A stretch of 64,000 bases of DNA from an uncultured Clostridia bacterium (GTDB lineage Bacteria; Bacillota; Clostridia; Christensenellales; Borkfalkiaceae). The stretch lies in NCBI GenBank assembly GCA_947628505.1, contig CANRAD010000002.1:62001-126000 (forward strand), in the 5' to 3' direction. Below, piece by piece: positions 23,886 through 44,093 of this stretch. The position numbers and the translations under genes are program-made. The notes beneath the pieces are model-generated. The model saw nothing but the letters and a program-made list of their open reading frames with translations, did no database searches and had not been told where the DNA came from. Every line of letters starts with the position of its first letter. Within the stretch, counting starts at the first letter, position 1.

Positions 23886-24032
23886 ATTTCGCCTGCCGAT
23901 ATATTATATCACATAGTTTTATGTTTGCAAGCGCGAAAAGCATTTGTTTTTTATAAAAGTCGGCGCATATATTTGATTTTATCGGCGCACGGTGATAAAA
24001 TATATCGCGGTTTCACATTTACGGAAAAAATT

Positions 24033-25340
24033 ATGATTGCAACATTGGTTATATGCGGCGCAACCGTGGCGGCGATGATCTGCGGCGTGCTGTTCTTCCC
24101 GAAAATAAAGCTCGGCCCGTTAAAAATAGACAGTTATTGGGTGATAACTCTGCTCGGAGCCTGTATTTTGCTCGCAAGCGGGCAAGCGGACGTCGCGGCC
24201 GTGGGCAAGGCGCTCGTGGCCGACACCGCCGTAAATCCGCTCAAAATACTCGTGCTGTTCATTTCGATGACGGTGCTCTCCGTCTTTCTCGACGAGCTCG
24301 GATTTTTCAGATTTCTCGCGAGCGCCGCGCTGAGAAAAGCCGGAAGCGGACAGAAAAAACTGTTTTTATATCTGTATGCAACCGTTTCCGTTCTCACCGT
24401 GTTCACTTCCAACGACGTCATAATACTTTCGTTTACTCCGTTTATCTGCTACTTCGCAAAGACAGCAAAGATAAACCCCGTGCCCTATCTTGCGGCGGAA
24501 TTTGTGGCCGCAAACACTTGGAGCATGCTGTTCATAATAGGCAATCCGACAAATATATATCTCGCCACTTCTTACGGCGAAGACTTTGCAAACTACCTCA
24601 AACTCAGTCTTTTCCCCACGATTTTTGCGGGAACGTGTGCGTTTTTCGTGCTGTATATTCTGTTCCGCAAAAAACTTTCGGCGCCCATTGTCGGCGAAGC
24701 CGAGGACGCGCGTATAGAAAACAAACCCATGCTCGCGGCGGGAATAATTCACCTTGCCGTCTGCACGGTGTTTCTCGCCGTAGGCTCGTATATCGGCGTT
24801 GAGATGTGGATAGTTTCCGCGTGCGCCGTGGGAAGTCTTGCAATCTGCGCGCTCATCATGTGCGCGGCGCAGAAAAAAAAGCCGAAAGAACTTTCGGCAT
24901 GTTTTATGAGGGCGCCCTGGCAATTGGTTCCTTTCGTACTCGCCATGTTCGCGCTGATTGAAGGACTCGGGCAGAACGGCGCAACCCGCGCATTCGCAGA
25001 TTTCTTAGGCAGCGATTTCGCCGTGTTGAAGTACGGCGTAAGCTCGTTTTTCGCCTCGAATCTGATAAACAATATACCTATGAGCGTGCTGTATTCATCC
25101 GTGCTCAACTATTCCGACGCCGGCTTGGGCGCAATGTTTGCAACGGTGATAGGCTCCAATCTCGGCGCGTTTTTAACGCCTGTCGGCGCGCTCGCCGGGA
25201 TAATGTTTTCGGCTATTGCCGGAGAACACGGCGTCAAATTCGGATATGTCGATTTTCTGAAAACGTGCGCGATAGCGGCCGTTCCCGCGCTGTTCGCCGC
25301 GCTCGGCGGACTTTATCTCGCGCTCCTATGCTTCGGCTGA
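24033..25340 (+). CDS. ArsB/SLC13-type anion permease
   Basis: A 435-residue membrane protein with about 11 helices of the ion-transporter superfamily that includes ArsB and the SLC13/DASS carriers. Two signature re-entrant loops are visible: TSNDVIILSFTPF with GNPTNIYLATSYG in the first half and NLINNIPMSVL with GSNLGAFLTPVGALAG in the second. ATG 24033 is chosen because the earlier in-frame region (23.93-24.03 kb) is not hydrophobic and has no ribosome binding site; the site before 24033 is itself weak. No ars genes are nearby, so arsenite is only one possible substrate; carboxylate or another anion is equally likely. Confidence 0.82.
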   Translation: MIATLVICGATVAAMICGVLFFPKIKLGPLKIDSYWVITLLGACILLASGQADVAAVGKALVADTAVNPLKILVLFISMTVLSVFLDELGFFRFLASAALRKAGSGQKKLFLYLYATVSVLTVFTSNDVIILSFTPFICYFAKTAKINPVPYLAAEFVAANTWSMLFIIGNPTNIYLATSYGEDFANYLKLSLFPTIFAGTCAFFVLYILFRKKLSAPIVGEAEDARIENKPMLAAGIIHLAVCTVFLAVGSYIGVEMWIVSACAVGSLAICALIMCAAQKKKPKELSACFMRAPWQLVPFVLAMFALIEGLGQNGATRAFADFLGSDFAVLKYGVSSFFASNLINNIPMSVLYSSVLNYSDAGLGAMFATVIGSNLGAFLTPVGALAGIMFSAIAGEHGVKFGYVDFLKTCAIAAVPALFAALGGLYLALLCFG

Positions 25341-25436: not shown

Positions 25437-25511
25437 TGGGGTGTAGCCAAGCGGTAAGGCAACGGACTCTGACTCCGTCATTCGGGTGTTCGAATCACTT
25501 CGCCCCAGCCA
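25437..25511 (+). tRNA. tRNA-Gln (anticodon CUG), with encoded CCA
   Basis: A 75-nt tRNA with acceptor TGGGGTG/CGCCCCA, D-arm, anticodon loop CTCTGAC giving CUG (Gln), T-arm around TTCGAAT and discriminator G with encoded CCA. The T-stem is imperfect (GGGTG/CACTT, two G-U pairs). The part from the anticodon loop onward is apparently supplied by the inserted element; the displaced original 3' end with a perfect T-stem (GTTGG/CCAGC) is at 44,049-44,093. A terminator (25517-25552, GGGCGGTTTTTAGC stem, then GTTTTTTG) follows, also on the element side. Confidence 0.93.
25467..25484 (+). other. attL core of the element
   Basis: CTCTGACTCCGTCATTCG inside tRNA-Gln. Identity with the right copy stops abruptly on both sides (GGA before it here, TTC at the right end), which defines the crossover segment. 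Confidence 0.82.
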
Positions 25512-25750: not shown

Positions 25751-27028
25751 TTAAATTTTATAATTAACTTTTTCGGCTTCACTGAGGATATATTCTTCCG
25801 AATAGTCGGTATATCCCCTATCCACGCGGGAGGTTACAACTCCCGCCTCCTGCTCGTGTCCGTCCCAAAGCATTACCACTTCGGGGTTGACGCCCGCTTC
25901 CTTGCACCTTGTAATAAAGGTATATCTCAGTTCGTGCGGATGGTGATGAGGAAACAATCTCTTAACCTGTGAAGCTATCGCGTTGGGGTTGGTGTCCCTT
26001 GCCTTGTCAAAGTCAACATAGGGCAACACTCTTCTAAACACAGGCGTGAACGGTATTCTACGCTCAACGACGTTCTTGCCCATGCGCTCTTTGCTTGTGT
26101 CGCAAACAAGGTATTTACCGTCTATAATTCTGATACTTTTCAGTTCGGACTGCCGAAGTCCGAAGTAAAGCAATACCAAAAGTGCCGAGCTTGTCGCGCC
26201 GTCCGTTCTCGCCGTGCAATATTCCACAAGTTTCTTTTCTTCTTCCTTTGTGAATGCGCTTCCTTTTTTGCTTTCAAAGTGCGGCAAGACGATTTTTCTC
26301 ATAGGCGACAGAATGTTGAAATCCTCAACAGCCATATCGAAAATACAGTTAAGCTGTAATTTCAACTTCTCTGCCGTTCTGCCCTTACCCTGGTCCACAA
26401 ATCCGAACAGAAAATTTTGCACCATATTCCTGTCAATATCCGTTAGATGTAAATGTCCGAAAACAGGTTTTAAATTTACGTTAAACGAGCGCAGGTACTC
26501 TTTGTAGGTGGACGGTTTTGTGGTCTTTTCCTTTATTTTGAGCCATTCCTCGGCGTAGTCCGAAAAAGTCAAAGTGTCTGCCGTGCGGCAATTTTGATTG
26601 ATTTTTTGTTTTTTGGTTGGCTTACCGTTGGCGTGGTCGTTTAGCTTTTCTATAAACTTCTGCTTCATAATTTCAAAGTTTGCCGAACTTACTTCTATGT
26701 TAAACCCGTTTCTGCGGTAGCGCGCCTCATACACTCCCTTATGGTAGCGATATGATACTATTTCACTGTTATAGGCAAATATGTGTCTGTATATCTGCGG
26801 CATTTTTTGAATCTCCTTTTTACTGAATTTGATTTTGCCGCAGTTTTTTACACTGTCTTTCCCTTCCCTTTGTATTCTCACGGCTTCCCGTGATACGTTT
26901 TGCCCTGCATGGGCAATAGGTTGTTCGGCAAGCATTTTGCGGTATGCTTCTGTCTGCAAATTCAAAAACCTTGCAAACAGCTCGTTCATGTCTGCCGTTG
27001 TTACCGGTTGTGATTCCTTATACTGCAA
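25751..27028 (-). CDS. Tyrosine integrase of the tRNA-Gln element
   Basis: A 425-residue phage/ICE-type integrase. After an N-terminal variable region, residues about 90-150 look like an arm-binding domain (YRYHKGVYEARYRRNGFN), then a core-binding domain (LTFSDYAEEWLKIKEK) and the catalytic domain: Arg in LYFGLRQSELKSI, HELRYTFITRCKEAG (HxxR), His in LWDGHEQ, and Tyr in RGYTDYSEEY. It is placed next to the left end reading towards attL, the standard arrangement. The HEQEAGVV stretch between the His and the Tyr is slightly unusual. The first 30 residues may not be translated; the nearest good ribosome binding site (AAGGAG) precedes the first ATG. Confidence 0.92.
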   Translation of the reverse strand: MQYKESQPVTTADMNELFARFLNLQTEAYRKMLAEQPIAHAGQNVSREAVRIQREGKDSVKNCGKIKFSKKEIQKMPQIYRHIFAYNSEIVSYRYHKGVYEARYRRNGFNIEVSSANFEIMKQKFIEKLNDHANGKPTKKQKINQNCRTADTLTFSDYAEEWLKIKEKTTKPSTYKEYLRSFNVNLKPVFGHLHLTDIDRNMVQNFLFGFVDQGKGRTAEKLKLQLNCIFDMAVEDFNILSPMRKIVLPHFESKKGSAFTKEEEKKLVEYCTARTDGATSSALLVLLYFGLRQSELKSIRIIDGKYLVCDTSKERMGKNVVERRIPFTPVFRRVLPYVDFDKARDTNPNAIASQVKRLFPHHHPHELRYTFITRCKEAGVNPEVVMLWDGHEQEAGVVTSRVDRGYTDYSEEYILSEAEKVNYKI

Positions 27029-27233: not shown

Positions 27234-28157
27234 TTACTTGCTCCAACCACCTCGCTTGCCGTGGAAAGGAGTGGGCGGATTTTTCTTATGACGGGCTTTT
27301 GAGAGAAGTGCCTCAAACTCGTCGGGATAGGTTTCTATTATGTCTGTTACCATTCTGTACGCTTTCTCCGACGTGCGCAACTTTCGTTCCTGTTCCTGCA
27401 CAAGATTGAATAGGTCTTTTGAATCTCTATTCTTGATTTCAAGCTGTTGCTTATATGCGGCATTGTCCTTGCGCAGAGAGGTTATTTCTTCGGCAACCTC
27501 TTTTTTCTTTTTAGGCAACGGCTGGTTTTTAATGGCTTCAACTTCCTCGTGTACTCCGTCAAGATATGCCCGCGCTTGTTGTTCGGCTTGCTTTATTATC
27601 TCGGCTTTGTACTCCGCCGTAGGCTTGTGCTTTGCCGTGCTACCTTCTTTCCCTCGCTGTAATCCCCACTTCTTGCCGACGGCTTCGTGAAAGTCAGTCT
27701 GTAACTCCCGTAACGCTACTCTGTCGAATAGCTGTTTGGAACACAGTCTGCCGTCCAGCACGGGAATCAGATTGAGGTGCAAGTGCGGCGAAGTTTCATC
27801 GACGTGGACTACCGCAGAGATTATGTTTTCCTCGCCATAACGTTCGGCGAAGAACTCCGTGCAGTCCGTAAAGAATTGACGTTGTTCTTCGGGCGATAGC
27901 CCCTCGAAAAATTCCTTGTCTGAACCGAGAATAAATGAATTTATGAGTACGGCGTCGTCCTTGATTTTTCTTTTCTGTGCAAGCTCCTTTATTCGTTGGT
28001 TGATATAGGTTATGTAACTGCAACCGCGCTGAACTATGTGATAGTTGCCGCCCGTGCGCTTTAAATCTATATCGGGATTTTTTGTTGGCGTGTAATTTTT
28101 ATCTCTCTCGTTCTCGCGCTCGATGCCTTTGACGTCGGCGCGTTTGTATTTATCCAT
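27234..28157 (-). CDS. MobV-family relaxase (Mob/Pre)
   Basis: A 307-residue plasmid-type relaxase that nicks oriT for conjugal mobilisation. The MobV signature HVDETSPHLHLNLIPV near residue 115-130 contains the metal-binding HxH, and NPDIDLKRTGGNYH near 27 is the conserved N-terminal motif. The C-terminal third (residues about 190-290) is a charged coiled coil (AEEITSLRKDNAAYKQQLE), as in Mob/Pre proteins. The protein is shorter than pMV158 MobM (about 490 residues), within the range of MobV proteins in Firmicutes IMEs. oriT lies 65 bp upstream of its start. The last residues are basic (KKNPPTPFHGKRGGW). Confidence 0.93.
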   Translation of the reverse strand: MDKYKRADVKGIERENERDKNYTPTKNPDIDLKRTGGNYHIVQRGCSYITYINQRIKELAQKRKIKDDAVLINSFILGSDKEFFEGLSPEEQRQFFTDCTEFFAERYGEENIISAVVHVDETSPHLHLNLIPVLDGRLCSKQLFDRVALRELQTDFHEAVGKKWGLQRGKEGSTAKHKPTAEYKAEIIKQAEQQARAYLDGVHEEVEAIKNQPLPKKKKEVAEEITSLRKDNAAYKQQLEIKNRDSKDLFNLVQEQERKLRTSEKAYRMVTDIIETYPDEFEALLSKARHKKNPPTPFHGKRGGWSK

Positions 28158-32726: not shown

Positions 32727-33557
32727 TTATCCCCTATTTTTTATCTTTTCTATACAAGCAATGACAGCCTTTATTACAAAAGCCAACAATACGGTTATAC
32801 CGGCAAAAATTCCCGCTATTGCAAGGAAGCCTATTATTATGAACGAAAAAGACGTCATGGCACTCGTAGTTGCTTCCAACGCAGGCATAGACACGAAATA
32901 CATTATTATGTCTGCAATTAGAAGTAACGCCGCTATAAATAAAAAACCTTTGAATCCGCCTTTAATATCCGACGTGCTTAACTCCATATGACTTGCAATC
33001 ATAAAAGAAAGCACGATAAATACCCACCACAGAATACTTCCCGTGTTTGTAAAGCCGAAAATATCTTCGACTATATCCCAAAATATTTGCAAACTTGCAG
33101 AGTAGGTTGACGCCTCAAACAGGTTAAACGATATAAGCGGGATAAATTTAAGCTCGTCAACCACTTCCGAAAAAATACTCGGCACAAGCAAATACATTAA
33201 GAGGAATATTACTCCGCTTCCGCCCAAAATAGGTGCAATCCCTATAAAGAAGTTGCCGATTTGATGGTACAAATTTCTCGGATTATATGAATGATTGACA
33301 TAACCGAGCGTACCGTCCGAATCGGGCTGATACAGCTTTATTTCAGTAACTTTATGCCCAAAAACCACGCACATAAGAGCGTGGCTTAATTCGTGAACGG
33401 GCGTACCGATTATTCCCGTGGCAATAATTATTTTTGAAGCATTTTCGCCGACTATTTTATAAAATGCCTTTCGGCAGAGGGTAATCAATAGTCCGAAAAC
33501 TACGATTACCCCTACCGTAAATATAAGCTGATATAAAAAGTTATAAAGTATTTCCAT
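32727..33557 (-). CDS. M50-like integral membrane metalloprotease
   Basis: A 276-residue membrane protein with about six to seven helices. GTPVHELSHALMCVVFGH near residues 51-68 contains HELSH, the HExxH zinc motif of site-2-protease (M50) and related membrane proteins, placed in a hydrophobic helix. A second conserved loop may be FIGIAPILGGSGV near 110. The third metal ligand (usually NxxPxxxLDG) is not obvious, so this may be an M50-like protein of different function. It is between lipoprotein genes with 5-6 bp gaps on both sides, which suggests it acts on, or helps in export or shedding of, these lipoproteins. Confidence 0.7.
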   Translation of the reverse strand: MEILYNFLYQLIFTVGVIVVFGLLITLCRKAFYKIVGENASKIIIATGIIGTPVHELSHALMCVVFGHKVTEIKLYQPDSDGTLGYVNHSYNPRNLYHQIGNFFIGIAPILGGSGVIFLLMYLLVPSIFSEVVDELKFIPLISFNLFEASTYSASLQIFWDIVEDIFGFTNTGSILWWVFIVLSFMIASHMELSTSDIKGGFKGFLFIAALLLIADIIMYFVSMPALEATTSAMTSFSFIIIGFLAIAGIFAGITVLLAFVIKAVIACIEKIKNRG

Positions 33558-36445: not shown

Positions 36446-38560
36446 TTAAAACTTATCAGCAGTCCATATATGGTCGGAAATTTCTTTCCATTTGTCCGCC
36501 GAACGATATTGTTCGAGAACATCGGGCGTGTTCTTGATATATATACCGTAATCGGCGTTTATTCCTTCAAAAACATTATCTCCGAGAATAGGCGGCAATC
36601 CCTCTAAAATAATCGAAGAAAGTGACGAACAGTTATAAAATGCCCTATCGCCTATTTCCTCAATGTATTGTGTGAGGGTTATCTTCTCTATGGGTGAAAA
36701 CGAAAAGGCATTTGCGGAAATCTTAACAATTTTATGCGCATTCAATATTTCCGGCACAACCACTTCCGCATCCGTTCCGAAATACTGCCTTATCGCATAA
36801 CCGCCTTCAACCTCCTCAACGGCGTAATCGCCGAAAATATTGCCCAAAGAGTAGATTGATTGACTGAAATCTTTCCACTTGTTTGCTATTTGAAAATTTC
36901 TGATAACTCCGCTCGGAACATATATTGAAAAGGTTTGCGCAACTCCGTCAAATACATTATCCCCTAACGTCGGCACTTTACTTATTTCGATTATCATTGC
37001 TTTCAAGTTCAAGCAATTTGCAAAAACGCTGTCTTCAAACGATATGCTCGTCGAATTTGAATTTAATTTAACGCTTACAAGATTTCTGCAATTTTCAAAT
37101 GCTCCGTTTTCAATAGAAGAAATTTTTCCGCCGAGAGTTATGCTCTGTAATTTGGAACTGCTGAATGCATATTCCGAAATTCTTGTCGTTGAAGAATCTA
37201 TTTCATATGTTTTTCCATCTTTATTGGCAGGATACTGAATTATATATGAGGAGTTGCCGACCTTGTAATAAAGCACCCCGTTCAAAGCTGAATACCTTTC
37301 GTTTCCTGCCCCAACGGTAAATTCTTTTAGCATTGCCATGTTTCTGAAAGCACCGTCGCCTATCGAATTGACATTATCGGGAATTTCAATTTCCTCTATC
37401 AACGAACACCCGGAAAAAGCCTCCTTGCCTATGGTTGTTACGGCGTTTGGTATAATAATTGAAGACAATTTTTCGCATCCGCTGAAAATTCTTTCGGGAA
37501 GGCTTTGGACGGATAGCGGAATGTTTACTTTTTCCAAAGCATTACAGTTTTGAAAAGCACCGGAAGATATTTGCTTTATACTTTGAGGCAAAAGTACCGT
37601 TTTTAATGTCGACGACTGTACGCTTTTCAACCGCGTAACCGGTTTACCGTAATATGAATCGGGTATAACTATCTTTTCGTCATTGCCGCTGTAAGACACT
37701 TCGTATTCTCTATCGCTTGTGAATGAAATCGTTTCAAACAGTAAAATGTTATTTGTCCCTTCAGTAAACTTTGCGTATAACGCTACCGAACTATCAAAAT
37801 GTTCGGGAATTGTAAAAGGAAAACTAATCGGTGACAAATGCGTTTGGTCAAGGCACCAAGCCTCGAAACAGAAGTTATCTTTTGTGGAAACAGGTAAGCT
37901 ATTTAACACCGTTCCGATAGGATACGAAACACTTTCAACTGCGCTCCCATCAGTAACAAAATTAAACATCACCGTTTTAATTCCCCAATGAGCGTATAAG
38001 GTTGAACCGTTTTCGCCTTTGGGATAAACGGAAAAATTATATACATTTGCCGATTCCGAAAAATTACCTATTGAATCTACTATTTGATTACCGTCGGTTT
38101 CGGCTGTGTACCATCCTTGAAATGAATATCCCGTCCTCAAAGGTATAGGGAAACGGTCTGTTATCTCTTCGTCATAAACAACCGAAATTTCATCAACTTC
38201 GTTTTGCGAAGTTGCGCCGCAATATTCAAATTTTATTTTATATGTGTTTGCACTCCAATGGGCATAAACGCTTGTGGAATTATTTTCTTTCCACGTTATT
38301 CCTGCACTACTTCCGGAGGAATCGGTATATGCCGAACCACCTTCGACTTCGCTATACCACCCCCAAAACGTATATCCATCTTTTTCAAGCGCATCAAATG
38401 AATATTCGTTTCCCAATATGACAGTTTCTTCTCTTAAAAACTCATCTCCGTCAAATAACGACACTTTAACCGATTTTTGATTTGTACAAGCACAAACAGT
38501 TAAAATTACCGATACAAGAATTAAGAATATGATTATCGGAAGACATATCTTCTTTCTCAA
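36446..38560 (-). CDS. Lipoprotein with Listeria-Bacteroides (Flg_new) and LRR_5 repeats
   Basis: A 704-residue lipoprotein, first gene of the surface operon. The start is a TTG at 38560 with GGGAGGAG five bases upstream. The signal ends at VCAC (residue about 25). Residues about 30-265 hold three Listeria-Bacteroides repeats (DGYTFWGWYSEVEGGSAY, RTGYSFQGWYTAETDG, FCFEAWCLDQTH) as in InlB, and about 300-700 BspA-like LRR_5 repeats (VTTIGKEAFSGCSLIEEIEI, NSIGDGAFRNMAMLKEFTV). This domain pair is typical of adhesins of gut Clostridia. Ligand unknown. Confidence 0.9.
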   Translation of the reverse strand: MRKKICLPIIIFLILVSVILTVCACTNQKSVKVSLFDGDEFLREETVILGNEYSFDALEKDGYTFWGWYSEVEGGSAYTDSSGSSAGITWKENNSTSVYAHWSANTYKIKFEYCGATSQNEVDEISVVYDEEITDRFPIPLRTGYSFQGWYTAETDGNQIVDSIGNFSESANVYNFSVYPKGENGSTLYAHWGIKTVMFNFVTDGSAVESVSYPIGTVLNSLPVSTKDNFCFEAWCLDQTHLSPISFPFTIPEHFDSSVALYAKFTEGTNNILLFETISFTSDREYEVSYSGNDEKIVIPDSYYGKPVTRLKSVQSSTLKTVLLPQSIKQISSGAFQNCNALEKVNIPLSVQSLPERIFSGCEKLSSIIIPNAVTTIGKEAFSGCSLIEEIEIPDNVNSIGDGAFRNMAMLKEFTVGAGNERYSALNGVLYYKVGNSSYIIQYPANKDGKTYEIDSSTTRISEYAFSSSKLQSITLGGKISSIENGAFENCRNLVSVKLNSNSTSISFEDSVFANCLNLKAMIIEISKVPTLGDNVFDGVAQTFSIYVPSGVIRNFQIANKWKDFSQSIYSLGNIFGDYAVEEVEGGYAIRQYFGTDAEVVVPEILNAHKIVKISANAFSFSPIEKITLTQYIEEIGDRAFYNCSSLSSIILEGLPPILGDNVFEGINADYGIYIKNTPDVLEQYRSADKWKEISDHIWTADKF

Positions 38561-38808: not shown

Positions 38809-39717
38809 TTACTGTAAGTTTTTGCCAAGCTTATTCATCATCGCGCACTTGCGTTCCATAAGACTGTGAACATATCTTTTCAGCGTTATCGCAGGGTCGT
38901 TGTGCCCCAAAATTTCCGATAAAGTCTTGACGTCCATTCCGCACTCTATCGCCCGCGTTGCAAATGTATGCCGCAAACTGTGAAAACCTTTATGCGGTAT
39001 GTGCAAACGGTTCAGCAGTAACTCAAAAGTCCTTTGGTATGACCTTATCGAAATCTCTGCCCCGTCACTTCCGCTTATAACGTAAATGCTTTTGCTATGC
39101 CTTTTCATTTCTCTCAAATATGGAATTACCGTTCTCGGAATTGGAATTACTCTGCGTGAACTTCTTGTCTTAGGCGTGTCTGTTGTCTTTTGATACTTAC
39201 CGTTTTCCCAACCGTCGTGGCAGGTTTTTGAGACGGTTATCAGACCTTTTACAAAGTCTATATCGCCCCATTCGAGGGCGAGCAGCTCGCCTATCCGCAA
39301 CCCCGTGTACAGACACAGTAATATGCCGTACAGCTTGGGTTTTTTCTTGCCGATTATGAATTGCTCTATTTGCCGTTGTTCGGCTGTTGAGAAGCACTCG
39401 ATTTGCTTTTCTTCGTGCTTTGGATACTGAATACTACCCGAATACTGCCTTTGCACTAATCCCATTATTTCGGCGCGTTGCAGGGAATTTTTGAGTACGG
39501 TGATTATTCCGTTGACCGTGTTTGCGGCGTATCTCTCGGTTATTTTTGCCGTGAAGTTTTGAAGAACCGAAGAAGTCAGAAGGTCCATTTCATATTCACC
39601 CAAATCTGGAATTATAAGCCGCGTTGCTATATCGCTGTATCTTTGGTATGTCCGTAATTTTTTGAGCGGCTTGACTGTTGTCATAAGCCACTCATTCAGC
39701 CATTGTTTGTATTGCAT
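38809..39717 (-). CDS. Tyrosine recombinase/integrase (paralogue of the one at 18.1 kb)
   Basis: A 302-residue recombinase, complete: Arg in YTGLRIGELLALEW near 150, HSLRHTFATRAIECG, His in LSEILGHNDPAI and Tyr in LKRYVHS. It matches the enzyme at 18.1 kb in length, in domain order and in many positions (both end CAMMNKLGK.LQ), although one is chromosomal and the other lies inside the integrated element. It is directly upstream of the surface lipoprotein operon, in the same orientation. It may be a remnant of a nested element or a recombinase that rearranges the surface operon. I found no convincing repeat pair around it. Confidence 0.92.
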   Translation of the reverse strand: MQYKQWLNEWLMTTVKPLKKLRTYQRYSDIATRLIIPDLGEYEMDLLTSSVLQNFTAKITERYAANTVNGIITVLKNSLQRAEIMGLVQRQYSGSIQYPKHEEKQIECFSTAEQRQIEQFIIGKKKPKLYGILLCLYTGLRIGELLALEWGDIDFVKGLITVSKTCHDGWENGKYQKTTDTPKTRSSRRVIPIPRTVIPYLREMKRHSKSIYVISGSDGAEISIRSYQRTFELLLNRLHIPHKGFHSLRHTFATRAIECGMDVKTLSEILGHNDPAITLKRYVHSLMERKCAMMNKLGKNLQ

Positions 39718-39781: not shown

Positions 39782-39867
39782 ATATTTACTTTCTATCCTT
39801 GCTTATATTAATTTTTATTGGTGCAAAACAAATAGTTAACCTATTTACATTAGTACATTATATTAAA

Positions 39868-39895
39868 AAATAACGGATATAAATCTCCGTTATTT
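39868..39895 (-). terminator. Terminator of the radical SAM peptide operon
   Basis: AAATAACGGA (minus strand, 5' side 39886-39895) pairs with TCCGTTATTT, followed by T-rich TTTTAATATAAT, 20 bp after the radical SAM stop codon. Confidence 0.8.
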
Positions 39896-39914
39896 TTCTA
39901 TTTGCTTTATATGT

Positions 39915-41195
39915 TTAAGATTCATTAATATATCTATCTAATAAGTGCCTTATATAATATTCACTATAAAAACAAGAATCGCCCTCAGGTAAATCTTGCT
40001 TTTGTGCCGGACAACCTCCTAAACAAATAGGAAATATTTTACATTTCTTACATATTTCAAGAGGTTCATTTTTTATAAATCTCATCAAATAATCGTTGTA
40101 AAATAGACCTGTAGTTATATTTCCAATGATTTTATCTTCTTGCCCAACATGATGTTCGCATTTATATAATTCTCCATCGGGTCCTATTACTTTATTTTGC
40201 AATTTAAAAAGTCCACAAAAAGTTTTATTATATTTATATAAGCGAGGATTATATTTTCTTCCCATTAATTCGCAAATATATTTATCAAATTCAATTCTTT
40301 TATTATCAAATTCAATTTGCGATAAAAATTTTTCGCCTCTACACCCAGCATAATCAATAAGTTTGGCGAGATAAATATTAAGATTTTTATGATTACCACA
40401 AGTATCAACTAATTGCTTGGCTACTATTTTCAAATCATCATAATTATTTCCATCACAGTTAAGTCGAATCGAAACTTTAACAAAATCTAATGAATCTTTA
40501 ATGTTTTTTATTAAATTATTATATTGTTTTATTGTTGCTCGTTTCCTTTTGCAGTAAACTTCTTCTGTCCCATCTACAGTTATCTGTACTCTCTTTAAAC
40601 TGCATTCTTTAGATAAATATTCAACCTTTTCTTTATCTAAAAGAACACCATTAGTTATCATGCTTGCAGTATAATTGATGACTCGCTTGTTGATTAATGA
40701 TTTAAAGTAATCGTTAAACTTAATAATTTGAGAATAAGCAATTAACGGCTCACCCCCAAACCATCCAATATTTACCGCTTTAATATCAGTATCAATATCT
40801 TTCTTGATATATTCAGCTACTGCTTTAATTGTTTGATCACTGATTGTCTTATTAGTTCTAAATCCATTTTCAAAACAATAATCACAATTTAGATTACATG
40901 AAAGCGTTGGTGCAATTACAAATGTTCGAGATTTTGATGATTGAGACAGTATCGTTATTTGCTCATTCAATATAATTTTATTATATTCATTTAAAGCTAC
41001 TGGTTTTATTAATCCTTGATTCAATAATTCGTCAAAATAGTTACACTTGTATTTATCATCAATTTCATTTTTCAAAATTAATTCATATATTTCCTTTTCC
41101 AATTTGCATAATGCACCAGAAAACGAATTATATAAATAAACGAATCTATCAGTTTTTTTTAAAACAATATTATAGTAGGAACAATTATATTTCAT
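39915..41195 (-). CDS. Radical SAM/SPASM peptide-modifying enzyme
   Basis: A 426-residue radical S-adenosylmethionine enzyme. LSCNLNCDYCF gives the 4Fe-4S motif CxxxCxxC at Cys 100, 104 and 107; GWFGGEPLI is the SAM-binding GGE motif, and about ten further Cys between residues 300 and 415 (FCGLFKL, LYKCEHH, CKKCKIFPICLGGCPAQ) form a SPASM domain with extra clusters. Residues 1-90 are a helical N-terminal part that could bind the leader peptide. The start (ATG 41195) lies 2 bases after the stop of a Cys-rich peptide gene, so it is translationally coupled. Such enzymes usually make thioether or other crosslinks at Cys of ribosomal peptides; the linkage here is unknown. AT-rich, unlike the chromosome. 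Confidence 0.9.
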   Translation of the reverse strand: MKYNCSYYNIVLKKTDRFVYLYNSFSGALCKLEKEIYELILKNEIDDKYKCNYFDELLNQGLIKPVALNEYNKIILNEQITILSQSSKSRTFVIAPTLSCNLNCDYCFENGFRTNKTISDQTIKAVAEYIKKDIDTDIKAVNIGWFGGEPLIAYSQIIKFNDYFKSLINKRVINYTASMITNGVLLDKEKVEYLSKECSLKRVQITVDGTEEVYCKRKRATIKQYNNLIKNIKDSLDFVKVSIRLNCDGNNYDDLKIVAKQLVDTCGNHKNLNIYLAKLIDYAGCRGEKFLSQIEFDNKRIEFDKYICELMGRKYNPRLYKYNKTFCGLFKLQNKVIGPDGELYKCEHHVGQEDKIIGNITTGLFYNDYLMRFIKNEPLEICKKCKIFPICLGGCPAQKQDLPEGDSCFYSEYYIRHLLDRYINES

Positions 41196-41197
41196 AA

Positions 41198-41338
41198 CTA
41201 ATCTTGAGAACAACCCATTCCATCGCCACTGCACTCATAATCATAGTCACAGCCACAATCATCACAATCACAGGAACAGTAATCATCACAATCATTATAG
41301 CTGTTATTAAACATATTAGCCTTAATTAAAATTTCCAT
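41198..41338 (-). CDS. Cys/Asp-rich precursor peptide D (46 aa)
   Basis: A 46-residue peptide beginning MEILIKANMF, with eight Cys in the second half (CDDYCSCDCDDCGCDYDYEC and a final GCSQD). The spacing CxC and DCDC with alternating Asp is striking. It has AAAAGGAG seven bases before its ATG and ends 2 bases before the radical SAM gene. Its first residues match the start of the three other peptides of the operon (ME/K-I/V-LI-x-A/S-N), which marks a shared leader. No GG-type or other cleavage site is obvious. I infer that it is a substrate of the enzyme. Confidence 0.82.
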   Translation of the reverse strand: MEILIKANMFNNSYNDCDDYCSCDCDDCGCDYDYECSGDGMGCSQD

Positions 41339-41366
41339 TTTATTTCTCCTTTTAAATAATTTTAAA

Positions 41367-41564
41367 TTAAGCACCCATCATACAATCATCATAACGACAA
41401 TCGACATCACAAGTGCAATCATCTTTTGAACAATCCCCATCACAATAAGTTTTTGAATAATAATCTTTATCACACGAACAATAGTTATCACAATCACAAG
41501 CACAATAAATATCACAATCTGGTTCAATGGACTTTAGTAAATTTGATGCAATCAATATTTCCAT
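41367..41564 (-). CDS. Cys/Asp-rich precursor peptide C (65 aa)
   Basis: A 65-residue peptide beginning MEILIASNLLKSIEPDCD, with twelve Cys in DC, CxC and YC pairs and the C-terminus YDDCMMGA. GAGGAGG lies six bases before ATG 41564; an apparent start five codons earlier is inside this ribosome binding site. The last residues DDCM(M/I)GA are shared with peptide B, so the two are recent duplicates of different length. It lies 28 bp upstream of peptide D. Heavy Asp content suggests either metal binding or a strongly acidic modified peptide. Confidence 0.82.
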   Translation of the reverse strand: MEILIASNLLKSIEPDCDIYCACDCDNYCSCDKDYYSKTYCDGDCSKDDCTCDVDCRYDDCMMGA

Positions 41565-41588
41565 CCCTTTCCTCCTCAAAAATTGATA

Positions 41589-41726
41589 TTAAGCACCTAT
41601 CATACAATCATCCCCGTGATAATAATTAGCATCACATGAACAATCTTGACAGTCATTGCAATCATTATCGCAAGTTCCATTATTCATAAATTGAGTAAAT
41701 GGATTTGCTGAAATCAATACTTCCAT
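41589..41726 (-). CDS. Cys/Asp-rich precursor peptide B (45 aa)
   Basis: A 45-residue peptide beginning MEVLISANPFTQFMNN, with six Cys (TCDNDCNDCQDCSC and DDC) and the C-terminus HGDDCMIGA, nearly the end of peptide C. AAGGAG lies seven bases before its ATG. It starts 30 bp after the stop of the membrane protein gene and is followed 24 bp later by peptide C. Leader-like start and Cys-rich core follow the same plan as the other three peptides. Confidence 0.8.
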   Translation of the reverse strand: MEVLISANPFTQFMNNGTCDNDCNDCQDCSCDANYYHGDDCMIGA

Positions 41727-41756
41727 AATACACTCCTTAATTTAATAATAGGCTAA

Positions 41757-42356
41757 TTATTGCTGACTTGCTCTAGTTATTTCTTCCAGAGAGTAGCTTA
41801 TACTCAGTTGATTATTTAAAATGTTAAGATGTTTAGTACCTAAATATTTCCTTAATAAGTACACCTCATCTTTTCTCTGTCCATATTGGGCATCCGAGCT
41901 AATTTTATATAGAAAATGTTCTTCTGCTTCAGTTAAATAATCAATTCTGCATTCCATTTTATAAAAAATATCGTTTGCCAAAACCGTAGGAATAACAATC
42001 GGTCTATCTTCTACTATCGTGCCCACATTACAATCTATAATAAGCTTATTGTCAATTAAAACTTTAATTTGACAATTATTGATTTTGGATTTTTCTATGT
42101 TTTTAATAATCATACAAAAATTAGAATTGCTTAATATTGTTAGCCCATTATATAAATCTGTAAATATTCGAGCATTTTTGATAGCAGCTCGATCACTTAT
42201 ATTATCAGTCTTATCTAAAAACGATACTGCAGGCACTACTCTTCTGTGCTTTTTATCATAATATCTTTGAAAACCGATAGTAATTGCCAAAGTTATAATA
42301 CTTGTAATTAAAGCCATTATACTTGCAATTAAAGTAAAAAAATCATCAGTTGTCAT
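41757..42356 (-). CDS. Membrane-anchored protein of the peptide cluster, unknown function
   Basis: A 199-residue protein with one N-terminal membrane helix (residues about 8-30, FTLIASIMALITSIITLAIT) and a soluble, mainly beta-strand-like remainder of about 165 residues. I do not recognise the family. It starts 8 bases after the stop of peptide A (the stop, AGGTAAG and ATG follow each other closely) and sits between peptide genes A and B, so it is certainly part of the operon. Possible roles are immunity, export aid or anchoring of the modified peptides; there is no ABC transporter or protease next to it. AT-rich like the radical SAM gene. Confidence 0.75.
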   Translation of the reverse strand: MTTDDFFTLIASIMALITSIITLAITIGFQRYYDKKHRRVVPAVSFLDKTDNISDRAAIKNARIFTDLYNGLTILSNSNFCMIIKNIEKSKINNCQIKVLIDNKLIIDCNVGTIVEDRPIVIPTVLANDIFYKMECRIDYLTEAEEHFLYKISSDAQYGQRKDEVYLLRKYLGTKHLNILNNQLSISYSLEEITRASQQ

Positions 42357-42364
42357 TTACTTAC

Positions 42365-42505
42365 CTACACAGCATCGCTACACTCATAGCCGTTATCAAC
42401 ACAATATGCCGAACAATCATTATTGCATGTATCTGGGGATTCATACTCTTCACATATGTCTTTAGAATCAAAGTCAAAATTATTAGAATTTATTAAAATT
42501 TTCAT
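42365..42505 (-). CDS. Cys-rich precursor peptide A (46 aa)
   Basis: The first gene of the cluster, 46 residues, beginning MKILINSNNFDFDSK, with five Cys (ICEEYES, TCNNDCSAYC, YECSDAV). It is less Asp- and Cys-dense than peptides B to D, but the start follows the same M-x-I-L-I-x-x-N pattern. AAGGA lies eight bases before the ATG. About 260 bp of AT-rich sequence upstream, to the nuclease gene, should hold the promoter; I could not settle on one (a TATAAAG/TATAGC stretch at about 42,540 is a candidate). Confidence 0.72.
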   Translation of the reverse strand: MKILINSNNFDFDSKDICEEYESPDTCNNDCSAYCVDNGYECSDAV

Positions 42506-42769
42506 ATGTATATTCCTTACTATCTTACAATATTTGTTTGCTATACTTTATAGACGATATGAAAGTTTACTTTGTTACAGCAACTTATAAAAGAAACTAT
42601 AAGTGAAAATGACACCAACTTAAAGCCAGCACTATAACCATATACTAAAAATAAAATACCATATACTCTTTAATATGTCAAGTAAAGGAGGAAGTTTGTA
42701 TGGCGTCCTCCTTTACAGCATTTGTTTTTCTTTTATTTTTAGGATAATTTATGCTTATTTTAATAATTA

Positions 42770-43813
42770 TTATTCCACACCCTCGGCAAGCTCTATATAC
42801 TCTTTTAATTTCTTTTGTAATAGCTTTTTGTCAATGAGTTTGAGCTTGTACTCCGAAACCATTGTCGGCGAAAGCGAGCGGCTTAAAGCGTATTCCACAA
42901 CTTCGTCGTCCTTCTTGGCGCAGAGTATTACGCCGACGCTCGGATTTTCGTTCGTTTTTTTCACGTCGCGGTCGAGAGCTTCGAGATAAAGATTCATCTT
43001 GCCGACATACTCAGGCTTAAACTCGTCAATTTTTAGTTCAAACGCCACAAGGCAAGAAAGCCCGCGGTGATAGAAAAGTAGGTCGATATAATAGTCATGC
43101 CCGCCCACCTGCAAGCGGTATTCCTCACCGATAAATGAAAAGTCCTTGCCTATTTCCAAAATAAAATTCTTCAAGTTCCGCACGATTGACTTTTGCAAAT
43201 CTTTTTCGCTGACGACTTCGGGGACATCGAGAAATTCCAAAGTGTAGGTGTCGAGAAAAGCGTTCGACGTGCTTTTCTTTGCTTCGGTTATTGCAGGCGT
43301 TGTCGGCTTTTGAGAAAGCATAAACCGCTCATAATAAGCGCTGTCTATCTGACGGGCAAGCTCGCGTTTTGAATATCTTTCCTTTACGCACAACGCCATA
43401 TAAAAATAACGTTCTTCGGCAGACTTGCAAGACGACATTATTTGCAAATGGTTAGTCCAACTCAATTGTGTCAACAGCGTTGACACTTTTTCATCGGAAA
43501 TGCCGAATAATTGTGTCACCACTGGTGACACTTTTTCATCTTTGCCATAAAGTTCGTAGAATTGCCGCATACGGTAAAGTCCCCGACGGGTAAATCCTTT
43601 GAGTTCGGGGTAATTTTTAGCGAAAAAGTCGGCAAGACCTTCCACATAAGAATCGCCATAAGCTGCATTGCGGGAATTTTCGGACACATATTTGCCGATT
43701 TGCAAATACATGTTGATGAGTTCCTCGTTTACCTTATAGTACGCGCGCTCCCGCGCCGCCTGAATAATTTTTACGATTTCGGAATAACTGTTGTCCGGCA
43801 ACATATAACTCAC
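42770..43813 (-). CDS. DUF1016 (YhcG-type) PD-(D/E)XK nuclease domain protein
   Basis: A 347-residue protein of the YhcG/DUF1016 family. The N-terminal half (residues about 10-150) is the DUF1016_N helical domain (INMYLQIGKYVSE, YPELKGFTRRGLYRMRQFY). The C-terminal half has the nuclease core GHDYYIDLLFYHRGLSCLVAFELKI, with Asp and ExK as expected for PD-(D/E)XK enzymes. Start: GTG 43813, or ATG three codons later with AGGTGAG before it, which I think equally likely. Such proteins are frequent on mobile elements, where they are linked to restriction modification or processing of DNA. It is the last gene before the right end. Confidence 0.88.
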   Translation of the reverse strand: MSYMLPDNSYSEIVKIIQAARERAYYKVNEELINMYLQIGKYVSENSRNAAYGDSYVEGLADFFAKNYPELKGFTRRGLYRMRQFYELYGKDEKVSPVVTQLFGISDEKVSTLLTQLSWTNHLQIMSSCKSAEERYFYMALCVKERYSKRELARQIDSAYYERFMLSQKPTTPAITEAKKSTSNAFLDTYTLEFLDVPEVVSEKDLQKSIVRNLKNFILEIGKDFSFIGEEYRLQVGGHDYYIDLLFYHRGLSCLVAFELKIDEFKPEYVGKMNLYLEALDRDVKKTNENPSVGVILCAKKDDEVVEYALSRSLSPTMVSEYKLKLIDKKLLQKKLKEYIELAEGVE

Positions 43814-44048: not shown

Positions 44049-44093
44049 CTCTGACTCCGTCATTCGTTGGTTCGAATCCAGCTACCCCAGCCA
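44049..44093 (+). pseudogene. Displaced 3' end of tRNA-Gln (attR)
   Basis: From the anticodon loop to CCA: the 18-bp core, then GTTGG-TTCGAAT-CCAGC, a perfect T-arm, and TACCCCA-G-CCA. The 5' half is missing (ACTCACCGAATTTC precedes), so it is not a gene. Its acceptor strand would pair with the TGGGGTG of the intact tRNA at 25437, which supports the view that this is the chromosome's original 3' end. Confidence 0.88.

Follow-up and report, generated by a model that had tools for sequence, protein, structure and literature searches.

Among the described systems closest to the locus reported here, PapB (freyrasin) joins cysteine (Cys) to the beta carbon of aspartate (Asp) in CX3D motifs and is reported to tolerate Cys-Xn-Asp spacings from n = 0 up to n = 6; when the order was transposed so that Asp came ahead of Cys, no crosslink formed (PMC9413430). 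In NxxcA, Cys23 is reported to be joined to Asn20, three residues off in the opposite direction (PMC8326336). A 2022 survey describes a Cluster 59, in which a recombinase and a radical S-adenosylmethionine (SAM) enzyme accompany a peptide that carries as many as six repeats of an Asp-Cys motif; its authors considered the modification hard to predict (PMC9062424). Here we describe a six-gene cassette in a stretch of 64,000 nucleotides (the window) from an uncultured Clostridia bacterium (GenBank assembly GCA_947628505.1, contig CANRAD010000002.1, positions 62,001 to 126,000), in which one radical SAM/SPASM enzyme follows four small precursor peptide genes and in which Cys in the peptides, and in those of related loci, is repeatedly followed three residues on by Asp (CX2D). 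We read it as a cassette for ranthipeptide-like ribosomally synthesized and post-translationally modified peptides (RiPPs), carried on an integrative mobilizable element, whose enzyme would link Cys to the Asp at +3; judged from sequence, we consider this reading evenly poised between right and wrong.

The six genes lie head to tail on the minus strand, running from 42505 to 39915 with intergenic gaps of 2 to 30 nucleotides:

42365..42505, minus strand: precursor peptide 1 (46 amino acids, 5 Cys), start MKILINSN; variant P0139 in other sequences
41757..42356, minus strand: membrane protein (199 amino acids), one N-terminal helix and a beta-rich domain; partner also in locus L173
41589..41726, minus strand: precursor peptide 2 (45 amino acids, 6 Cys), start MEVLISAN; variants P0127, P0129 and P0136
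41367..41564, minus strand: precursor peptide 3 (65 amino acids, 12 Cys), start MEILIASN; variant P0121, 95% identical
41198..41338, minus strand: precursor peptide 4 (46 amino acids, 8 Cys), start MEILIKAN; variant P0135
39915..41195, minus strand: radical SAM/SPASM peptide maturase (426 amino acids), recognised by domain models, motifs and predicted fold

This is the arrangement given by the first-pass annotation, which had placed one SPASM enzyme behind four peptide genes of 45-65 residues, with a membrane protein amid them (between peptides 1 and 2), and whose coordinates and Cys counts (5, 6, 12 and 8) were right. The enzyme starts at an ATG 2 nucleotides after the stop of peptide 4; an alternative GTG at 41234 in the list of open reading frames (ORFs) would overlap peptide 4. 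All four peptides have the common start that had been proposed for them, M[EK][IV]LI-x-[AS]-N, which is short and hydrophobic and leads into a Cys/Asp-rich core, and ribosome sites of GGAG/GAGG type precede the three nearest the enzyme (2, 3 and 4). The MEILI-type DNA pattern, outside which peptide 1 with its MK start falls, occurs three times in the 1.71 Mb genome, always in the cassette, and its backward control not at all.

Against NCBIfam models the four peptides gave no match at E up to 1. A search with the 65-residue peptide 3 alone returned one match (P0121), a profile built from 12 peptides returned 18, window peptides among them, and between single-peptide and profile searches variants of all four window peptides were found in other sequences. 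In six pairwise comparisons of peptide and variant, 42 of 43 Cys, 49 of 52 Asp and 176 of 197 other residues were kept, and the variants keep an open reading frame. Core length varies through repeat number, variant P0136 having additional NDC triplets compared with peptide 2. Peptides 2 and 3 (41367-41726) and variants P0136 and P0137 also share a C-terminal end, DDCM[IM]GA.

We then asked how often enzymes of this kind have such company, using loci that are ranked subsets of the relatives (the best 80 of at least 568 in one search and the best 80 of 174 in another). A peptide was counted if its ORF had 22-110 amino acids, at least 4 Cys, at least 8.5% Cys and a ribosome site, and lay within 900 nucleotides upstream or 600 downstream of the enzyme, a span that may be clipped by contig ends; the controls were spans of the same length, one set on the opposite strand and one at 4 kb distance. 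Among the 12 enzymes scoring at least 290, the window's included, 9 have a Cys-rich peptide beside them, with 0 and 0 in the controls. At scores of at least 190 (63 enzymes) the count is 25 near, 2 on the opposite strand and 1 far, some of the 25 being plainly something else (zinc-ribbon-like in L028/L030 and L179); at 100-190 (67 enzymes) it is 6, 0 and 1, and below 100 (66 enzymes) 5, 1 and 3. The check proposed in the first-pass annotation, a search for homologous enzymes with small Cys-rich peptides of the MEILI start, thus gave Cys-rich peptides beside 9 of the 12 near enzymes. Beside the eight other than the window's, the starts are hydrophobic as well: MEIIIETA and MELIIKSQ (L173), MIILVDAN (L006), MEILIKAK (L174), MDIILETG (L175), MLILRKPF (L009), MKIIKAAT (L086), MEIIKDAL and MEIIRDAT (L176) and MIVLVEAD (L010). 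In L173 the enzyme (54% identical) is preceded by two peptides and by a membrane protein homologous to that of the window, and 1.5 kb beyond it lies a serine recombinase gene. Because co-location (9 of 12) and leader are conserved, and because all four peptides have variants elsewhere, it is near certain that the locus is a RiPP locus in which one enzyme has several substrates, as had been suggested from the window by itself.

The cores of these peptides share a spacing. In the near-enzyme group (13 peptides, 9 loci, 96 Cys; peptide 1 lies outside the 900-nucleotide span and is left out of the count), Asp stands at +3 of Cys 47 times against 20.8 in shuffles (z-score, z, 7.4), the next-best distance being +1 with z 2.9. 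A hand-gathered set from the clade (15 peptides including peptide 1, 110 Cys) gave 53 against 23.7 (z 7.9), or against 29.4 (z 6.2) in shuffles that keep neighbours; for Asp ahead of Cys, z did not exceed 1.8 here or 2.0 in the outer set. The spacing extends to 26 peptides of more distant enzymes (Asp 30 against 14.0, z 5.2; Asp, Glu or Asn 52 against 26.9, z 5.8) and, more faintly, to 11 peptides beside enzymes even further removed (Asp 12 against 7.0, z 2.3); in 61 Cys-rich ORFs away from the enzymes, Asp, Glu or Asn at +3 came to 26 against 22.6 (z 0.8). Of the near loci 8 of 9, and of the distant ones 13 of 16, show a positive +3 signal; two of the distant loci (L028 and L030) contain identical peptides. 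Among the 74 distinct Cxxx words of the near group, Asp stands at +3 in 33, at +1 in 24 and at +2 in 14. Some relatives are visibly composed of this spacing: L176 has the words CSND, CSSD, CSRD, CGYD, CSYD and CSRD, and in L175 a peptide beside a third, more distant radical SAM gene has CNPD three times. Held-out loci yielded one more CX2D-rich peptide, from a genome already used, together with Cys-poor small ones without CX2D and unrelated ORFs. The Asp/Cys-rich core of the first-pass annotation stands, but the alternation of Asp and Cys as such is not the telling feature: Asp-Cys (DC) is weak against shuffles (25 against 21.5, z 1.0; 32 against 25.3, z 1.8), and CX2D, being sharper, has replaced it as the motif. 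In the open-licence literature we found nothing naming CX2D or CXXD in this RiPP/radical SAM setting.

The enzyme carries a radical SAM motif, CX3CX2C (C100, C104 and C107), and seven SPASM cysteines. Across 39 aligned sequences, with the query counted, all of these are kept in every one but for the last SPASM Cys, which is kept in 38; the enzyme also passes the models Pfam PF04055 (53.6 against a cut-off of 29.5) and TIGR04085 SPASM (50.7 against 27). Its AlphaFold2 model, from a 39-row alignment, is confident (predicted local distance difference test, pLDDT, 92.2; predicted template modelling score 0.89). Sharing the highest Z among solved structures are anSME, the peptide maturases 5wgg/5why, which we take to be CteB, the SCIFF maturase, and TigE (8vpo), the last two aligning over nearly the whole chain at 18-20% identity. 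In this whole-chain model residues 1-85 form strands and then helices, with which 5wgg_A aligns from residue 6 and 8vpo from residue 1. A quick tree of 120 rows puts the enzyme in a clade of 54 rows (53 database proteins and the L173 copy; Shimodaira-Hasegawa-like approximate likelihood ratio test 98). Three further cysteines, C198, C215 and C266, are near-invariant in this clade (50, 52 and 51 of 53, against 43, 44 and 4 of 90 other relatives), C266 being almost private to it. A role as a defence enzyme was set aside because of the SPASM domain and the precursors, viperin models being matched at just 43.3 bits.

A SPASM enzyme, substrates rich in CX2D and the precedent of PapB together point to Cys-Asp thioethers as the most likely product, and for thioethers made by this enzyme at CX2D in particular we would put the chances just short of even. 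According to this proposal, the short hydrophobic leader (MEILI-x-AN) would bind, in the form of a beta strand, to a putative PqqD-like recognition domain at the N terminus of the enzyme. The enzyme would cleave SAM and remove a side-chain hydrogen from Asp, or in some relatives from Asn or Glu. The carbon concerned would then be bonded to the Cys sulphur three positions earlier, repeatedly along each core, and the CX2D statistics and PapB chemistry together suggest that the same enzyme may crosslink four different precursors in this way.

Several observations weigh against a linkage from Cys to the Asp at +3. The spacing used by PapB, CX3D, is depleted in the near group (12 against 19.7, z -2.2), and the enzyme is below the PapB cut-off (NF047865; 102.4 of 340). 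Counted alone, Asp is somewhat more frequent than in shuffles at +3 in the far-ORF control too (13 against 7.2, z 2.4), with similar excesses at +4 (z 2.1) and +6 (z 2.0). Among the near loci +3 is the best distance in 5 of 9, with one locus (L006) negative at z -1.0; among the distant ones it is best in 4 of 16, and there most of the signal comes from L181 and L011. Peptide 1, with its five Cys, contains a single CX2D, variant P0135 is without one of the +3 Asp and P0139 without one Cys, and small peptides beside distant enzymes fetched later (two in L227 and one in L230, with 3 Cys each) are without CX2D. The rule is not strict, and among distant relatives it is weaker and carried by few loci.

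A core that is not strictly CX2D would also suit a sactipeptide-type or other thioether RiPP, in which Cys is joined to alpha carbons or mixed acceptors and CX2D serves only turn geometry or solubility, and the title of the top solved relative (5wgg/5why) names a sactipeptide thioether enzyme. The bias is limited to a single spacing and a single orientation, with the low z for Asp ahead of Cys given above, which argues against this alternative, and we regard it as unlikely. Less probable still is a metal-binding peptide retained in the cell, whose Cys and Asp bind metal and on which the enzyme makes another change or few crosslinks. Its attraction lies in the acidic, Cys-rich, loose cores with varying repeat number (P0136) and in the peptides and surroundings themselves: GG is absent from all four peptides, and the genes flanking the cassette, an integrase and a YhcG-type gene, are neither transporter nor protease; the first-pass annotation had likewise noted the lack of a GG or protease site and of an ABC transporter. 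The metal-binding reading is made less likely by the occurrence of such peptides next to 9 of the 12 near enzymes, members of a family that modifies peptides, and the sole metal-related Pfam match among the proteins scanned, an ArsB/CitMHS transporter at 23925-25340, lies outside the presumed element. For a modified peptide, the same lack of GG and of flanking export genes means that the product may retain its leader, rely on functions of the host or remain within the cell. That the peptides are not substrates at all, the enzyme acting on another protein and the Cys-rich ORFs being incidental, would account for the 3 of 12 near enzymes without a peptide by the criteria used (L007, L008 and L180, in the last of which the upstream DNA spans just 358 nucleotides), a count that weighs against the CX2D linkage too; the conserved leader, the ribosome sites, the variants that stay open and the near-zero controls make it highly improbable.

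If CX2D is the crosslinking rule, the ring pattern could be predicted from sequence for a part of the SPASM-modified peptides, one still without chemistry, and a multi-substrate enzyme making tight rings would be a peptide-engineering tool beside PapB. A broader proposal, which we consider less likely than not, is that a whole limb of SPASM enzymes, from Clo7bot to the window clade, crosslinks Cys to the residue three on, CX2[D/N/E], under a rule that has gone unrecognised. The window clade would then be its most elaborate form, with one enzyme, up to a dozen rings, four substrates and a place as mobile cargo.

The enzyme has 2028 homologues in the protein database at E up to 0.001; among the 120 matches listed, 49 full-length proteins (query included) have at least 47% identity, after which identity drops to 40% (P0053). 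In whole genomes it is patchy: at E 1e-50 it was found in 2 of 391 genomes of a class sample, and at E 1e-40 in 8 of 396 of the order, 2 of 251 of the family, 7 of 398 of the phylum and, for the family of another carrier genome (G752), in 1 of 74, which is G752 itself; the samples overlap, and all but the last count the query genome. Eleven other genomes of the host genus were without the enzyme at E 1e-40. Plasmid and phage collections held 11 and 4 records, all distant enzymes of at most 33.3% identity, the nearest enzyme in viral contigs had 33%, and the cluster DNA had no match among plasmids. A small Sarcina plasmid (L218, 2478-5053) has a distant radical SAM enzyme followed by a major facilitator superfamily transporter, and the stretches translated there contained no peptide with at least 5 Cys. 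Elsewhere, three different radical SAM genes, each with its own Cys/Asp peptide, lie within about 5 kb (L175, 4307-9440, genome G647).

The remaining features of the region, of which the first two flank the cassette and the others define its wider setting, are:

39866..39897, listed by the scan on the plus strand: terminator-like hairpin just 3' of the enzyme gene, which the cassette operon may use
42653..42681, minus strand: promoter-like site upstream of peptide 1, a 10/12 match with TG before the second hexamer
25437..25511, plus strand: tRNA-Gln (CTG), possible left attachment site
25751..27028, minus strand: tyrosine integrase (425 amino acids), next to the tRNA-Gln
27234..28157, minus strand: Mob_Pre relaxase (307 amino acids)
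38809..39717, minus strand: tyrosine integrase (302 amino acids), adjoining the cluster
44049..44093, plus strand: piece interpreted as the 3' portion of a tRNA-Gln, which matches the intact tRNA-Gln exactly over its first 18 bp; candidate right boundary of the element

Two such hairpins were found in the region against a mean of 0.6 in shuffles, and promoter-like sites are not above chance there (21 against a mean of 23.0). Two integrases and a relaxase bear out the mobilizable surroundings proposed earlier, and the natural reading is an integrative mobilizable element of 18.6 kb. In another genome (G1418) a sequence 75% like the right flank of the window directly follows a tRNA-Gln, whose left side matches for just 58 bp before the tRNA, so that no empty site is demonstrated in that genome; tRNA-Gln may be an insertion hot spot. 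The searched tRNA-Gln pattern occurs in 6 of 41 genomes (own included), where the 3' half is that of the intact window tRNA. Therefore the right-hand piece is not a simple displaced half, and as read from the sequences the 3' halves misfit a single simple insertion. The position of the cassette amid mobile genes, its patchiness in genomes and its dozens of relatives in the protein database suggest that it is a selected trait moving between bacteria.

Inside the presumed element, 6.4 kb from the enzyme gene, a 276-residue protein (32727-33557) has a Peptidase_M50B match below cut-off (22.9 of 26) and could be a candidate for cutting the leader. The YhcG/DUF1016-type gene adjoining the cluster (42770-43813; PF06250 and PF17761) matches the PADLOC candidate defence family PDC-S02 at 414.7 bits. 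A BspA-type leucine-rich repeat protein is found near the cassette both in the window (36446-38560) and in L173 (8511-13853), in the latter as the large ORF directly upstream of the membrane protein.

The membrane protein itself had no match in Pfam, PADLOC or PHROGs. The L173 homologue, also upstream of the peptides, is 22% identical over 175 columns (E 7e-10), and in the loci examined no others were found beyond the window's own copies and L173/L166. Its structure model is of low confidence (pLDDT 64), and the likeness to potassium channels in most of its Foldseek matches, with a query-normalised TM below 0.4, was not trusted. Our guess is that it is a partner of the cassette, perhaps for immunity or as a docking point.

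How far the locus departs from described systems depends on whether enzyme or lay-out is compared. The first-pass annotation had found no known class to match it, and this holds for the enzyme, for which every named NCBIfam maturase listed is far below cut-off and none is an equivalog, as is also true of ten enzymes of related loci (E up to 1e-30); it does not hold for the lay-out, which has precedents in the Clo7bot array and Cluster 59. CteB (5wgg) and TigE (8vpo) share the fold of the window enzyme over almost the whole chain, but not its sequence, and it reaches 80 of 425 on the SCIFF maturase model. PapB and freyrasin, a ranthipeptide system, offer the same repeated Cys-then-Asp pairs in one orientation, made with a radical SAM enzyme (PMC9413430), but with CX3D in place of CX2D and an enzyme from whose model ours is remote. 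The highest-scoring named family is TIGR04463 (rSAM_vs_C_rich), whose short name refers to Cys-rich peptides; the window enzyme reaches only 186.7 of 525, and in the quick tree one representative of this family (L219) and one of Clo7bot fall outside the window clade. In the open-licence literature we found nothing on TIGR04463 or on Clo7bot. In the Clo7bot system (TIGR04334), as in the cassette, a single SPASM enzyme follows tandem short Cys-rich peptides, there with the hydrophobic start MKFIKKP, and seven peptides of one plasmid favour Asp, Glu or Asn at +3 (17 of 45 against 6.7, or 9.6 with neighbours kept), these being tandem copies in which +7 is raised too. It differs in leader and core sequences, in the enzyme score (152.4 of 600) and in the ATP-binding cassette transporter gene downstream in the Clo7bot example, of which the window cassette has none. 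Finally, Cluster 59 of the 2022 survey, whose first author we take to be Kostenko, may be the window clade or a neighbour of it.

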